A DNA stretch of 24,795 bases from a virus: the IMG/VR virus record IMGVR_UViG_3300042691_024482, positions 1 to 24,795 of that record; one strand, written 5' to 3'. The notes under the pieces were generated by a model, which worked only from the letters and a program-made list of their open reading frames with translations, made no database searches and was not told where the DNA came from. Shown here one piece after another: positions 4,663-20,647 of this stretch. The position numbers and the translations under genes were made by a program. The number at the start of each line of letters is the position of its first letter. Within the stretch, counting starts at the first letter, position 1.

Positions 4663-5513
4663 GTCGTGAGGAAAACGCGATCGCGGTATCGCTCGAAGAA
4701 TTTGAGCAAGTGCGGGCAAGCCCTGCACCTTGTATGATGGACGGCCACGCGGCCAAGGTCATTCCAGTCAAGTGCCCCGTAATGGAACATTCGAAGCGGT
4801 GTTCCATCCACGAACCATCGTTCGTTGATTTTGCGAAACTGGCCTTCGCCATCATATCGCCAGAACGCAAAATTGATTCCCTGATCACGGCATATCCATA
4901 CCCGGTCCATGTAATCGCCAACAAAACGAAACCATCCCTGTTCGGCAAACCGGCCGGCCCCCATGTTGCATTCAGGGTTATCGATCGATTCCCTCATCCA
5001 CCATTCCACAAATTGGCGAGCGTTCGGGGTGTTCGAGAAACCAACCAAGCCGACATTGTAGTTTCCGCACATTGCAAATTGCTCAAGGCACATCGCCTTG
5101 CCGTCACGCGGCGGGGGCTTGATTCTATGCGGTGTCGCGATTGCGTCATGCGTGACCAGCTTATCCCACAGGTCATCGATCGTACCTAAAAATTCGGTGT
5201 CGCCATCGAAAGCCATAACGGCCGAATGACCTTGGCGAAGCATGTACTCGACAATCAAACAGCGTGGAAATCCGCCCATTGTGCCTACGTGAATCATTCG
5301 TTCAAGGTAGTATGCATCCATTTGATTTGGATAGACAACCTTGACAAAGTGCGGCACTGAGATTCGAGCAAAATCGCGAATCGACCCGCAAAATAAAAGG
5401 TAGTACTCGGTGTCATCGCCGCCCTCATGGCACTCGCGATACGATTCAATCGAGACGCGGGTTTGAAACCATCGTTCGGCCGACGAGAACCATCCTACGG
5501 CTTTGGGCTTCAA
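4659..5513 (-). CDS. putative glycosyltransferase (GT-A fold, DxD-type)
   Basis: A 284-residue protein. An AVMAFDGDTEFLG segment (DGD at residues 103-105) resembles the metal-binding DxD of GT-A glycosyltransferases. A NYNVGLVGFSNTPNARQFVEWW segment follows, recalling the FNxGxxxF acceptor region of GT8-like enzymes. An EQGWFRFV motif follows further on. A longer GTG start at 5528 exists, but the TTG at 5513 has GGGAG eight bases upstream and overlaps the preceding stop as TTGA, so it is chosen. It is one of three glycosyltransferases in this head module and directly follows a GT2 gene. The substrate is unknown. A sugar on capsid or tail proteins is the contextual guess. Confidence 0.7.
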   Translation of the reverse strand: MKPKAVGWFSSAERWFQTRVSIESYRECHEGGDDTEYYLLFCGSIRDFARISVPHFVKVVYPNQMDAYYLERMIHVGTMGGFPRCLIVEYMLRQGHSAVMAFDGDTEFLGTIDDLWDKLVTHDAIATPHRIKPPPRDGKAMCLEQFAMCGNYNVGLVGFSNTPNARQFVEWWMRESIDNPECNMGAGRFAEQGWFRFVGDYMDRVWICRDQGINFAFWRYDGEGQFRKINERWFVDGTPLRMFHYGALDWNDLGRVAVHHTRCRACPHLLKFFERYRDRVFLTT

Positions 5514-6283
5514 GATACAGTCTCCCACGGCAACCGGCCGCCATGCTGTTCTGCGAATTTTAAGTTGCCGTCGATGAAAAATTCCGGCTTAGGCGAAAGT
5601 TCCCATGAGCCCAACTCATAATTGACGGTCCATCGTGGAATCATGGCATAATTTGGGAACTTGCGTTTAAGCAGGTTGCATATTTGCGTATCGGCCGACG
5701 GCTGGACGGTCTTGGTCTTATCGTAGCGGGATTTATGCCAGTGCGGGGCAATATGCACGGCTACGCTACGCTTAAGGCAATAGCAATTCGTATCGATATG
5801 GCTGAAATCAGGGTTATACCATACCGGCCAAATGCCAACCGATTCGCATTCGTCGCGACATAGGTATTCGCCATTCTGATAGATGTTTCGCATGGCAAAA
5901 CACCAATCAAGGCTATTTTCTTCGCAAGCCTTGATGCAATTCTTGACGTGATCCGGGTCAAACCAGTTATCATCGTCCAGATAGAAAATATAGTCTTGAT
6001 TAACGATCATCGGTGTTGCGCCATAGATCCGATGGCACACATATCCATTAGATCCGGTATTTTGAGGAAGAGTCACAATATCAATCCAGTCCGCATCACG
6101 CTTTTTTATGGCGTCGTGATAGACGGCCCGGGCGTTATTGTCGAATTCAGGACCATCGACAATAACAAGGCATTGAAGGCTTCCCGGCCCTCGCTCATAC
6201 GTCTGCTCGTAAAGCGATTCAATCGCCCGTGCAAGCGTTGGCTTGCCGATTGTGGCAATGATTACGATAGCCGAATCACTCAT
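5510..6283 (-). CDS. glycosyltransferase family 2
   Basis: A 257-residue protein. It starts with the GT2 nucleotide-binding strand AIVIIATIGKPTLARAIESLYEQT. It carries LQCLVIVDGP at about residues 37-45 and the metal-binding DxD motif in IFYLDDDNWFDPDH (DDD at residues 103-105). Family members move a sugar from a nucleotide sugar to an acceptor. No membrane anchor is visible, so it should be cytoplasmic and able to act on virion subunits before or during assembly. It overlaps the MuF-like gene by eight bases and the next glycosyltransferase by four, so all three are likely co-translated. Confidence 0.88.
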   Translation of the reverse strand: MSDSAIVIIATIGKPTLARAIESLYEQTYERGPGSLQCLVIVDGPEFDNNARAVYHDAIKKRDADWIDIVTLPQNTGSNGYVCHRIYGATPMIVNQDYIFYLDDDNWFDPDHVKNCIKACEENSLDWCFAMRNIYQNGEYLCRDECESVGIWPVWYNPDFSHIDTNCYCLKRSVAVHIAPHWHKSRYDKTKTVQPSADTQICNLLKRKFPNYAMIPRWTVNYELGSWELSPKPEFFIDGNLKFAEQHGGRLPWETVS

Positions 6284-7262: not shown

Positions 7263-7451
7263 ATGAGCCAGAAACCGCCGAAATATAGCCCGTTTGAATT
7301 GGTTGGCGGCCCGCATGACGGCCAGATCCACTATTGTCATCCCGGCGTCATAACGATTGCCATCCCGCATGGCGATCAGATTTTTCAATACATCCGAAAT
7401 CAGGATGGCCGCTTGCACTTCAAGCCAATCCGGCCGGCGTTGAGCGAATGA
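7263..7451 (+). CDS. small GGPxDG-motif protein on the opposite strand
   Basis: A 62-residue protein on the plus strand, the only convincing gene in this orientation. The ATG has a strong GAGGGA Shine-Dalgarno seven bases upstream. The N-terminus reads SPFELVGGPHDGQIHY, and the [FY]ELxGGPxDGQ pattern is common in small phage and bacterial proteins of unknown function. Part of the pattern recurs in this window in the minus-strand protein at 23528-23857 (FACIEGPLDGATV). It fills the gap between the MuF-like gene, from which it diverges, and the GT41-like gene, with which it overlaps 32 bases tail to tail. Function unknown. It may be a separately expressed cargo gene. Confidence 0.7.
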   Translation: MSQKPPKYSPFELVGGPHDGQIHYCHPGVITIAIPHGDQIFQYIRNQDGRLHFKPIRPALSE

Positions 7452-9225
7452 CGGAATCAAGCCATGATCCAAATTCCTTCGCTCCGGTTGCCGTATACAA
7501 ATTGGCGTCAAGGTCCGCCATCGAAAGATCGGCCGCGAAGGCGTCGCGGACATGACCATAACGAATCATGTCAATGATCAGGCTCTTGAACGCTTCAGGC
7601 GTGTCCGCCACAAGCCCGCCGAGGCCTACGGCCCGCAACATGGCCGGCCCGATCCGGTTGAACCATCGATCGCCCTCAAGGGCTATCACGGGCTTCCTGA
7701 GCCACAAATTATCAGAAACCGTGTTCGAACCGGCAAAAGGGTGGCAATCAATCGCAAAATCGGCCCGTTCCATTTGTGCCATGTACTCGCTGTATTCGAG
7801 GTGCGGGTAAACGACAACTTCGCACGCGGTGATCGCTTCGCCCATGTCGCGAAGAAATGCCCCGAATCCGCCGCGGTTCGTTGCGGCCCCGCCAGCGAAC
7901 ACTTGCAGCTTGACCTTAGAACCGTCATCGGCCACCGCTTCGCCGATCGCTTGGTTGACAAGATCCAGAAATGGCCGCGTTACTTTTTGCCCGTACCACG
8001 ATGCATTGATCAGGACGCCATCAAAATCTTTTGCCGTGCCTTGTGGCTCATAGGTTGGCTTGGCATGAGTTGCACCAAAACCGGGTAGCCTTACGAGAAA
8101 TTCGCTGTAGTTAGCCTGATGCTCGGGATTTTCGACCAATTGACCGGAAATGAAATAGTCGATTTCGCTTCCGAATGTACTGACGGGGTGCCCGGTCATC
8201 ATGATTTGAATGGGAGCAATCCGCATATTCGAAAGCAGGATCGACGATCCGGTCATGCCGACATCCGGATAAATGACAACGGCAAGGCCAAGGTTATTGA
8301 GCGGATCGGTGTTGAGCAGTTCGCCGTCAAAATCCAGCTTGAACGATTCAGCGAAAAGCGATGTATCAAGGTCTTCGGGCTTGCGGATTGTCGATATCAG
8401 GATAAGCCGGTAATCGGCCGCAAGGGCTTCGATATAGGCTTTAAGCGTCCGATAAACGGAATGACCCTCAAACCACAAGTCCGAAATGACCGCAATCGTG
8501 CGGGATGGCTTGCCGCCTTCAATTTGAGGAACGGTCTTTTTGACCGCATGATTGATCCAGCTTTTCAGATTTCTTTCGGCTTCCATGGCGCCTAGGTACG
8601 TGCAGAGAAAATAGGGTTCTTGCACATTTTTCGTATAGCGATATCGGCCGCTGACTTGTCGTGCAAAGCTGATCAGCTTGTTTCGGCATCGCGTGTTCAC
8701 GTTGCCGGAAAATGTCGTCTTGAATGTTTCGTTGAGCCATGCCGAGGCCAGCGAAGGGGCGGCGGCAAAAAGCTCATCGAATCGAATGTCGCCATTGTTC
8801 CGGGCGGATAGCATGACGCATGATTTGAAAGCTTCTTGTTTTTGCCCGGCAAGGCTTGCGACAAAAGCGTCAGTGGTGTTATCGCCAGCCGTTGCGATGG
8901 CATTTGCGATTGTCGGATTATGCCATAGAAAGTTGCGGGAATGGCTTTCGGGAATCTGATAATCCGGCCGTGCGATGATTGCCAGCACGGAATTGATAGC
9001 CTGAGTGATTTCGCCCATGGATTGTGGCGAAGGCCCCCGGGAATCGGCTTCGATGGCCGAAAGGATTTCCAGAATCCATCGTGTCGCGGCAAAATGATCT
9101 CCGCTTGCGTAACTTGCCACCATAGCCGAAATAGGCCCATCATATCGACCTTGTTTCGGCGAATGAGGCCGAACGATTTCGATCGGCTTTGGCGGTGCGA
9201 TTGCGACTGATTCGGCCGTTGCCAT
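7420..9225 (-). CDS. large glycosyltransferase, GT41 / O-GlcNAc transferase-like C-terminal domain
   Basis: A 601-residue protein. The N-terminal 200 residues are helical without clear TPR consensus. From about residue 245 there is a Rossmann-type domain (RTIAVISDLWFEGHSVYRTLKAY). The C-terminal part reads YMAQMERADFAIDCHPFAGSN, then DNLWLRKPVIALEGDRWFNRI and GLGGLVADTPEAF. This matches the GT41/SPINDLY layout (DxxLDxxPYxGxTTxxDALWMGxPVVTLxGxxxxxRxxxS) with changes at several positions. GT41 enzymes add a single sugar to Ser/Thr of proteins. A strong GGGGAAAAGC leader precedes the ATG. Together with two GT-A enzymes downstream it suggests virion protein glycosylation. Specificity cannot be read from sequence. 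Confidence 0.8.
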   Translation of the reverse strand: MATAESVAIAPPKPIEIVRPHSPKQGRYDGPISAMVASYASGDHFAATRWILEILSAIEADSRGPSPQSMGEITQAINSVLAIIARPDYQIPESHSRNFLWHNPTIANAIATAGDNTTDAFVASLAGQKQEAFKSCVMLSARNNGDIRFDELFAAAPSLASAWLNETFKTTFSGNVNTRCRNKLISFARQVSGRYRYTKNVQEPYFLCTYLGAMEAERNLKSWINHAVKKTVPQIEGGKPSRTIAVISDLWFEGHSVYRTLKAYIEALAADYRLILISTIRKPEDLDTSLFAESFKLDFDGELLNTDPLNNLGLAVVIYPDVGMTGSSILLSNMRIAPIQIMMTGHPVSTFGSEIDYFISGQLVENPEHQANYSEFLVRLPGFGATHAKPTYEPQGTAKDFDGVLINASWYGQKVTRPFLDLVNQAIGEAVADDGSKVKLQVFAGGAATNRGGFGAFLRDMGEAITACEVVVYPHLEYSEYMAQMERADFAIDCHPFAGSNTVSDNLWLRKPVIALEGDRWFNRIGPAMLRAVGLGGLVADTPEAFKSLIIDMIRYGHVRDAFAADLSMADLDANLYTATGAKEFGSWLDSVIRSTPAGLA

Positions 9226-9244: not shown

Positions 9245-10063
9245 TTATTCCGCCACTTTCGGCGGATTCAATTCATTTTTCACCGCTACGGACAAAATCA
9301 GGACCGCTTGGCCGAAAGTGCCTTCAATGGCATCTCCGTTTAACCAGCAGCATCCTTTTTGCCCCCAGCGTTCTCCCCAACTGTTCACGCACTTGACAAG
9401 CCACCCATGCCGCCCGGTCCGTTTGAGACCGTAACCGCTCACGACGGCGTGATTATGCATCCCCGGCGAATTGCCCGGCACTCCGTCCCGGTCCAGCTGG
9501 TCGAATCCGCTATTGACGGCTATCGAGTGCATCATCGTTCCACGCAAGTGCGTTCCGACAATCCAGTCACGCCACTTACGGGGCTTTCCGGCCTGAATTT
9601 CGATCCGCCAATGTTTCGCGTCATCCCGGGCTTCCTGAGTGATTTTTCGCGGGCTGTAGACGCCATGCGGAACAAGATTTTCCCGGCAAGTTCCAACCGT
9701 GGCGGCAAGGTCAATTACGTCAGTAATGATCGCCCCGCGATCAATTCCATTGCATGCCAAGGCATAGAGAAACCAAGGCGAAAGATCGATGTCGCCGTAC
9801 CCGCCTTGCCAAAGCATCCGCTCCATGCCCGTTGCGGCCATATGGCCCGTACATGCCCCGATAGAGCCCTGATCCTTTATCCTGATCGGGAATTTCGGGT
9901 TGTCGAACAGGTCGAACGGGATAAGCTCAGAATCGGGCACATCCGGAATCTCTACCCAATTGATTTCGGCCTTGAATGCCATCGGGCTTTTTGCCCGTTC
10001 TGGATCGAAGCCTAGCTTTCGAGTCGTGCCATCCGCGTTAGTCCATTCTGGAAGCTCGCTCAC
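9245..10063 (-). CDS. papain-like (C1A-type) cysteine peptidase
   Basis: A 272-residue protein. The active-site block is KDQGSIGACTGHMAATGMER with Gln65 (oxyanion hole) and Cys71. The His is in GMHNHAVVSGYG (His205) and the Asn in KCVNSWGERWG (Asn227). The full Q-C-H-N set of the C1A family is therefore intact, and the NSWGxxWGxxG motif is exact. No propeptide or signal peptide is visible, so it would be made active in the cytoplasm or used as a virion protein. It starts with GTG overlapping the preceding stop as GTGA. C1A peptidases are unusual in phages. Processing of virion proteins or an attack on host surface protein are possible roles. Confidence 0.88.
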   Translation of the reverse strand: MSELPEWTNADGTTRKLGFDPERAKSPMAFKAEINWVEIPDVPDSELIPFDLFDNPKFPIRIKDQGSIGACTGHMAATGMERMLWQGGYGDIDLSPWFLYALACNGIDRGAIITDVIDLAATVGTCRENLVPHGVYSPRKITQEARDDAKHWRIEIQAGKPRKWRDWIVGTHLRGTMMHSIAVNSGFDQLDRDGVPGNSPGMHNHAVVSGYGLKRTGRHGWLVKCVNSWGERWGQKGCCWLNGDAIEGTFGQAVLILSVAVKNELNPPKVAE

Positions 10064-19703: not shown

Positions 19704-20561
19704 TTAGTTGCAGGTGCGTCGATTCGTCAATCGCTTCTCATCTCGATTCATCATCAAAATCCGCCATGCGATCGCAGCCACAGCCGAAACTTGTCCGTTT
19801 CCAATGGCTTTAAGTCTGTCCACCCGATTGGCCACCCCATGAGCCACTCGACCCAGTTCGGGTTCAGTTGCCCACCAATCATCTGCTTCACGGATGCTTC
19901 GCCGTGGTTGTCCGCAATCATCTTTCTGGCACGCTGGCCGCCGTCTAATCCTATTCGTCCGCCGCTTCGGCTCTTGCTTACAGGCGTCGGCCACATCTTC
20001 ACCGCTTGCGTCAAGCTCAGATCCCGGCTGTTCGGCCCGTTCCCGCCTTTCGGACCATCCGAGGCCCGCGGCGTCGGCCAAAATCCAGATCCTTTCCCGC
20101 AAGTGCGGAGCACCGGCGTCGGCTGCCGAAACAACTCCCCATCGTGCATCGAACCCCATTTCGGAAAGGTCTCCGAGAACTCTTCTAATCCCCCGAGAAG
20201 TAAGCATTGGCGAGTTTTCCACGAACGCGTATCGGGGTCGAACTTCGCTAATGATCCGGGCCATTTCGCCCCAGAGTCCGGAGCGTTCGCCGTCGATTCC
20301 TGCCCCTTTTCCGGCTGCGCTGATGTCCTGGCATGGGAATCCGCCGCAGACGACATCGACGATTCCGCGCCAGGGCCGACCGTCGAATGTTCGCACGTCA
20401 TCCCAGATCGGGAACCACGGCAAAATCCCATCCCGCTGCCGTTGCAAAAGCACTTTTCGGCAGTAAGTTTCAATCTCGACCGCACAAACGGTTCGATGTC
20501 CGAGAAGTTGTCCGCCGAGGATTCCTCCCCCTGCTCCCGCAAAAAGGTGAAGCTCATTCAT
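19704..20561 (-). CDS. DNA (cytosine-5) methyltransferase
   Basis: A 285-residue enzyme that moves a methyl group from S-adenosylmethionine to cytosine C5. Motifs in order: I, ELHLFAGAGGG (7-13); IV, GGFPCQDIS with the catalytic Cys77; VI, VENSPML (115-117); VIII, HLRERIWILAD (155-159); target-recognition part with WWATEPELGRVAHGVANRVD; X, RLKAIGNGQVSAVAAIAW (254-258). All are present, so it looks active, though short. In phages such enzymes protect DNA from restriction. The ATG overlaps a 29-codon mini-gene as ATGA. Nearly the whole gene also carries a second open frame with its own recognisable motifs. Confidence 0.93.
   Translation of the reverse strand: MNELHLFAGAGGGILGGQLLGHRTVCAVEIETYCRKVLLQRQRDGILPWFPIWDDVRTFDGRPWRGIVDVVCGGFPCQDISAAGKGAGIDGERSGLWGEMARIISEVRPRYAFVENSPMLTSRGIRRVLGDLSEMGFDARWGVVSAADAGAPHLRERIWILADAAGLGWSERRERAEQPGSELDASGEDVADACKQEPKRRTNRIRRRPACQKDDCGQPRRSIREADDWWATEPELGRVAHGVANRVDRLKAIGNGQVSAVAAIAWRILMMNRDEKRLTNRRTCN
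19754..20557 (-). CDS. overlapping-frame protein within the methyltransferase gene (WPTP / NPxWVEWLMGWP family)
   Basis: A 267-codon frame in the +1 frame relative to the methyltransferase, beginning four bases after its start (ATGAATGAG). From about residue 70 it contains blocks that I recall from many phage proteins annotated as unknown or methylase-like: ADSHARTSAQPEKGQ, AKFDPDTRSWKTRQCLLLGG, EEFSETFPKWGSM, FWPTPRASDG, and LNPNWVEWLMGWPIGWTDLK. The HARTSAQ block is the PCQDIS motif region read one base off. The final block is the WWATEPELGRV region read one base off. A shorter start at residue 68 (Met, 20356) is possible. Whether it is translated is not shown by sequence alone. Confidence 0.5.
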   Translation of the reverse strand: MSFTFLREQGEESSADNFSDIEPFVRSRLKLTAEKCFCNGSGMGFCRGSRSGMTCEHSTVGPGAESSMSSAADSHARTSAQPEKGQESTANAPDSGAKWPGSLAKFDPDTRSWKTRQCLLLGGLEEFSETFPKWGSMHDGELFRQPTPVLRTCGKGSGFWPTPRASDGPKGGNGPNSRDLSLTQAVKMWPTPVSKSRSGGRIGLDGGQRARKMIADNHGEASVKQMIGGQLNPNWVEWLMGWPIGWTDLKPLETDKFRLWLRSHGGF

Positions 20562-20647
20562 TCAGTCCCCATCTCCACAACCTGAACCCGTGACATTTCC
20601 GTTTTGCCGTAGGTTTTGCTGATCTCGTGCGAAAAGATCTCGCTCAT
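20558..20647 (-). CDS. 29-residue mini-gene between repressor-like and methyltransferase genes
   Basis: The frame begins MSEIFSHEISKTYGKTEMSR and ends VVEMGTE. The ATG overlaps the XRE gene stop as ATGA and has a GGAGGGGAAGGG leader. Its stop overlaps the methyltransferase ATG as ATGA. It could be a real coupled peptide or just a translational bridge that delivers ribosomes to the methyltransferase start. The sequence gives no family. Confidence 0.45.
   Translation of the reverse strand: MSEIFSHEISKTYGKTEMSRVQVVEMGTE

Follow-up and report, generated by a model that had tools for sequence, protein, structure and literature searches.

A reading frame nested in a phage cytosine-5 methyltransferase gene probably encodes the second subunit of the enzyme

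Does the cytosine methyltransferase gene of this phage encode one protein or two? The window, a virus record of 24,795 bases, carries terminase, portal, repressor-like and resolvase-like genes, together with a methyltransferase gene (alpha) whose +1 frame is open almost throughout (beta). A preliminary description had reported a 267-codon frame, one base off the methyltransferase frame and covering nearly the whole gene, and had offered two readings: either a single stretch of DNA serves two proteins, or a widely annotated protein family is an alternate-frame shadow of dcm genes. The frame is present as described and, at 267 codons against 285 in alpha, leaves about 94% of the gene common to both proteins.

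19704..20561, minus strand: alpha, predicted large subunit of a C5 methyltransferase; ATG at 20561, stop at 19704, 285 amino acids
19754..20557, minus strand: beta, predicted target-recognition region and motif IX; ATG at 20557, stop at 19754, 267 amino acids, +1 frame

Alpha contains methyltransferase motifs I–VIII and X and lacks motif IX. Its match to PF00145 is well over the cut-off (3.3e-31) and confined to residues 3–178, which span motifs I–VIII, catalytic PCQ and AdoMet site included; the match stops at profile position 176 of 324, whereas the single chain of phage MM1 covers positions 1–321. By sequence, alpha matches PF00145 and M.HhaI no further than motif VIII, and it does not hold motifs IX and X in one chain with I–VIII, motif IX being in the +1 frame only. 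The AF2 model of alpha comprises a confident core (residues 1–176), a disordered stretch (177–241) and then a C-terminal helix, with no ordered small domain. Its core compares with M.HhaI at a Z of about 21.5 over ~195–196 of the 327 M.HhaI residues, a partial coverage that fits expectation if the small domain is missing. Motif VI of alpha (residues 115–120; 20202–20219, minus strand) reads ENSPML in this family and not the usual ENV, with E115 and N116 invariant.

20328..20336, minus strand: alpha motif IV, PCQ, with the expected catalytic Cys77; invariant in A2 except for the near-invariant Q78
19887..20066, minus strand: alpha spacer between motifs VIII and X, codons 166–225, overlapping the predicted target-recognition region of beta; distinguished by dN/dS and disordered in the model
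19755..19814, minus strand: alpha motif X, LKAIGNGQVSAVAAIAWRIL; conserved in A2 and a C-terminal helix in the model

Beta had no Pfam or NCBIfam match, its profile found nothing credible among PDB sequences (best E 0.53), and AF2 gave a low-confidence fold for beta alone (pLDDT 56). It matched phrog_1008, which is labelled DNA methyltransferase, at about 4.3e-31 over beta residues 38–201, placing it in that family, and also phrog_26627, of unknown function, at 6e-18. The second parts of split and single-chain relatives match phrog_1008 as well. Aligned with the single-chain profile, beta runs through motif IX (97.6%, E 3.7e-12), and alignment with M.HhaI alone picks out exactly motif IX (272–289), pairing GQLNPNWVEWLMGWPIGW with RKLHPRECARVMGYPDSY, a match that is weak by itself (E 0.23). 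The motif IX position is occupied by LNPNWVEWLMGWPIGWTDL of beta.

20213..20242, minus strand: beta FDPDTRSWKT, opposite alpha motif VI, EVRPRYAFVEN; +1 identity 0.49 against 0.30 expected, with an in-frame counterpart in the single-chain ORF L326
20054..20083, minus strand: beta FWPTPRASDG, start of the predicted WPTP/LPTP target-recognition region; aligns with LPTP segments of single-chain enzymes
19808..19873, minus strand: beta motif IX, GQLNPNWVEWLMGWPIGWTDLK; +1 identity 0.68 against 0.31 expected, and covered by the single-chain profile

The conserved blocks quoted in the preliminary description do all lie in the second frame, but their placement over conserved parts of the methyltransferase needed correction, as FDPDTRSWKT falls over motif VI and not over PCQDIS. 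The latter faces SHARTSA of beta, FWPTPRASDG faces the end of alpha motif VIII (WILADAAGLG), and LNPNWVEWLMGWPIGWTDLK of beta faces WWATEPELGRVAHGVANRVDRLK of alpha.

Profile scans recovered 20 ORFs in which alpha motifs I–VIII are followed by the C-terminal half of beta in one chain, most of them also with motif X. The best example is a natural single-chain version of 730 amino acids in an actinobacterial genome (L326:2222-4411), in which alpha 1–170, beta 107–242 (with FDEKTLSWR and LNPDWVEWLMGWPVGWT) and alpha 215–264 follow one another in frame. The nested pair therefore has the same parts in the same order as L326 and the ShiLan gp70-type single chains (I–VIII, LPTP/WPTP region, IX, X), except that in those all parts lie in one frame and one polypeptide. 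Because single chains hold alpha I–VIII, the beta segment and motif X together in one frame, beta corresponds to the missing target-recognition and motif IX part, and the target-recognition region is apparently located in beta.

We consider it very likely that the nested genes encode a two-subunit cytosine-5 DNA methyltransferase, for which we infer translation of both proteins, complex formation, methylation and a choice between starts. Alpha would provide the AdoMet-binding and catalytic large domain (I–VIII) and the closing motif X helix, with its stretch between VIII and X as a disordered passenger, while beta, read in +1 from an ATG 4 nt downstream, would provide the target-recognition region and motif IX. 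The two would assemble into one enzyme in which alpha catalyses and beta serves as the small DNA-reading domain. Neither this identification of the second protein nor the resemblance to M.EcoHK31I discussed below was part of the preliminary description.

Alternatively, beta could act independently of the enzyme, as a regulator or counter-defence factor for example, its gene simply happening to overlap that of the methyltransferase. Its lack of a confident fold and of a PDB match would suit such a role, as would its first 104 residues, which are under weaker selection and have no in-frame counterpart in single chains. We nevertheless regard a separate function as very improbable, given that alpha lacks both motif IX and an ordered small domain, that the C-terminal half of beta is that very segment in single chains, and that no lone beta occurred among 79 loci of bacterial and archaeal genomes. 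Alpha was found in the expected phase in 77 of these 79 loci; the two exceptions are the single chain L326 and L322, a remnant in which the ends of both frames survive.

The two subunits most likely come from two starts on one message.

20553..20561, minus strand: double start ATGAATGAG, with alpha and beta ATGs 4 nt apart; Asn2 AAT and Glu3 GAG fixed
20566..20576, minus strand: purine-rich GGAGATGGGGA, from its sequence a possible shared ribosome-binding site

The four-base spacing of the starts, also pointed out earlier, was borne out, the alpha ATG at 20561 and the beta ATG at 20557 overlapping as ATGAATGAG, and beta starts exactly +4 nt from alpha in 142 of 159 viral loci. The alpha Asn2 codon is always AAT (62/62, compared with 44% AAT gene-wide) and thereby creates the beta ATG, while Glu3 is GAG in 64/65. 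Since GGAGATGGGGA sits just ahead of both ATGs, ending 4 nt before that of alpha and 8 nt before that of beta, a single ribosome-binding site could serve both starts. One message with the double start ATGAATG would then yield both alpha and beta, with ribosomes loaded at one leader picking between the two ATGs.

Selection on each frame was assessed from dN/dS by substitution class in 38 independent pairs, estimates that are approximate for overlapping frames. By alpha codons, beta dN/dS was 0.39/0.56 (codons 2–104), 0.32/0.34 (105–165), 0.06/0.07 (166–225) and 0.16/0.20 (226–268), every 95% interval lying below 1, and alpha dN/dS in the same order was 0.03/0.04, 0.09/0.10, 0.65/0.71 and 0.10/0.12, with an interval that includes 1 at codons 166–225. 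These results indicate that the DNA at codons 166–225, conserved in beta and near-neutral in alpha, is kept for beta, such that alpha is nearly a passenger there.

The same estimates bear on programmed frameshifting, which would join alpha I–VIII to the target-recognition and motif IX part of beta and shift back for motif X to give one long chain. The order of parts, being that of the single-chain relatives, makes a fused product plausible, but two opposite shifts would be required with motif X in the frame of alpha. Moreover, such a product would need neither the selection on beta upstream of motif VIII (0.32–0.56) nor a beta ATG fixed 4 nt after that of alpha; both features favour separate translation, and frameshifting seems to us as improbable as an unrelated function of beta.

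Viral homologues were gathered twice, once with beta and once with alpha, the alpha-selected set being the fair one for judging the +1 frame. In 97% of its 79 viral loci, at least 80% of the gene was open in the +1 frame; no locus was open to that extent in the +2 frame. These loci contained 124 stops in +1, compared with 435 expected when synonymous codons were permuted, and 1,074 in +2; nearly all of the 124 are either the TGA of the initial ATGA or terminal stops. A deficit of this size rules out chance. In Acinetobacter phage ABMM1, for instance, the +1 frame is open for nearly 300 codons and the +2 frame is crowded with stops. The phase of beta was identical (+1) in 159/159 scored viral loci, which pool both sets with some contigs in both (132 without near-duplicates).

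With alpha held fixed under synonymous permutation, +1 protein likeness exceeded the null across beta, peaked at motif IX and dropped to null level over the final 15 codons of alpha, beyond the beta stop. The ratio to the null was 1.48 in +1 and 1.36 in +2, and because the +2 frame was also above its null, part of the +1 excess reflects shared ancestry of wobble bases. We therefore put more weight on fixed wobbles, a held-out profile and dN/dS. Further fixed wobbles in alpha were Gly136 GGG (64/64), Val261 GTG (60/60) and Ala265 GCA (65/65). When a beta profile was trained on half of the loci, the held-out real +1 frames had a median score of 341 bits and never fell below 246, and permuted frames had a median of 179 bits and a maximum of 250; the +1 frame of the window reached 378 bits compared with at most 240 when permuted. 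Single-chain relatives, used as a control, showed no consistent +1 constraint (dN/dS 0.42 to 4.1, few counts), and in L326 the +1 frame across the alpha part gave 32.8 bits, a value within the permuted range (mean 27, maximum 45) and thus no evidence of a surviving beta there.

That the +1 frame is open and family-like solely through the conserved residues and codon bias of alpha, with no beta protein, is hardly credible: alpha does force part of the likeness, as the median of the permuted genes indicates, but the scores of real frames, the deficit of stops, a beta dN/dS of 0.06–0.56 with alpha near-neutral at codons 166–225, and the in-frame presence of the beta segment in single-chain enzymes all argue against it. 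The earlier suggestion that a widely annotated family is a shadow of dcm genes was accordingly rejected on synonymous permutation, wobble counts and dN/dS, while its counterpart, two proteins on one stretch, agrees with the conserved openness, the fixed wobbles, the +1 dN/dS below 1 and the in-frame segment of single chains. The signs against dual coding that had been named beforehand, many +1 stops and a neutral +1 dN/dS, were looked for and neither was found. These sequence comparisons strongly support the view that one stretch of DNA codes for two proteins in this phage and in more than 100 related viral sequences.

Among known two-polypeptide enzymes, M.EcoHK31I (YGGCCR) carries motifs I–VIII and X on its large polypeptide and motif IX alone on the small one, with the target-recognition domain predicted in the large subunit, according to the account in PMC3404938, which cites Lee et al. 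1995. The present pair has the same motif layout, I–VIII and X without IX in alpha and IX on the separate small polypeptide beta, but its target-recognition region apparently lies in beta and not in the large polypeptide, where the EcoHK31I assignment is itself predicted. The small-subunit gene of M.EcoHK31I reportedly likewise overlaps that of the large subunit in a different frame; unlike that system, the present one has a near-complete overlap (267/285 codons, starts 4 nt apart) and is carried by a phage, and none of the neighbouring genes scanned in the window was recognised as a restriction gene. Because the extent of overlap and the apparent location of target recognition differ, we do not file the pair as an EcoHK31I member, the likeness being one of motif layout. 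By analogy, the present system would work like M.EcoHK31I.

M.AquI (CYCGRG) has motifs IX and X both on its small polypeptide, as summarised in PMC3404938. Like M.AquI and the AquI-like enzymes of actinophages (Samy, Vash, Koreni, TelAviv), the present pair is encoded by overlapping ORFs, one per polypeptide and the second of them in +1, and, as in the AquI-like enzymes, the LPTP region and motif IX are in the second polypeptide. The split in Streptomyces phage Samy and other actinophages follows motif VIII, and their second ORF (+1) ends in IX and X (FAEWLMGLPDGWVTD...AIGNGVVP), whereas here the small polypeptide lacks motif X, which is in alpha.

Earlier work noted, without explaining them, C5 methyltransferase ORFs that overlap completely in streptococcal phages and Tn5252 (MM1, 5093 group; PMC5601072). 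MM1-type genes likewise contain a nested second +1 ORF conserved beyond chance, but motif IX remains in the MM1 main chain, and the ORF nested there (phrog_16143) spans only ~codons 45–190. Identity of MM1 with the present system was rejected on translation, which shows motif IX in the main chain and a different nested ORF. Across MM1-type phage enzymes (L329:7480-8634 with nested 7631-8053; L330–L408), motif IX was in the main chain in 38/44, the nested ORF had zero stops in codons 61–180, and +1 identity was 1.3 to 2.5 times the null inside the nested ORF, with a peak at CSLSDILEEEVDERYFLS, and ~1.1 outside. A literature search found no paper on the present nested alpha/beta family. Two-polypeptide C5 enzymes are known; what differs here is the near-complete overlap together with a target-recognition region that is apparently in beta.

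Beta-like frames were present in 161 phage records, at least 600 IMG/VR stretches and the 79 loci of bacterial and archaeal genomes. In the 11 records whose annotation was checked, alpha was listed in seven, beta in four and both in none. Related Vibrio phages differ in the annotated frame (alpha in L412; beta in L409 and L410), and beta is listed as hypothetical in Pseudomonas phage phPA-G and as a methyltransferase in Stenotrophomonas phage SOVA965 (L166 and L416 among the loci). Occasional copies are broken, whether by decay or by sequencing error, beta ending early in L083 and alpha in L147 and L152, with the other frame staying open, and in Mycobacterium phage Llama and relatives (L162:1299-2058) the alpha frame itself is interrupted, giving two ORFs that each carry a methylase annotation. 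Elsewhere in the window, on the minus strand, are a papain-family cysteine protease-like gene in the structural region (9245–10063; PF00112, 3.4e-5) and, among the head genes, two glycosyltransferase-like genes (7420–9225, family 41-like, 4.3e-8; 5510–6283, family 2, 4.6e-8).

The long same-strand overlap allows selection to be assigned to either frame, region by region. A nested pair also accounts for the repeated association of phrog_1008 and phrog_26627 with methyltransferases and for records in which either alpha or beta is annotated. Gene finders that do not allow full overlaps miss a nested subunit. In a recoded clone of an annotated phage methyltransferase, the hidden subunit would be expected to be destroyed and the enzyme inactive. 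The enzyme likely has a putative role in shielding phage DNA against host restriction. We give even chances to a broader reading, in which nesting the DNA-reading part in the catalytic gene would be a general, repeated layout of phage C5 enzymes, the MM1-type phrog_16143 ORF would be another case, and many 'orphan' methyltransferases of phages and prophages would be half-enzymes with an unannotated +1 partner.
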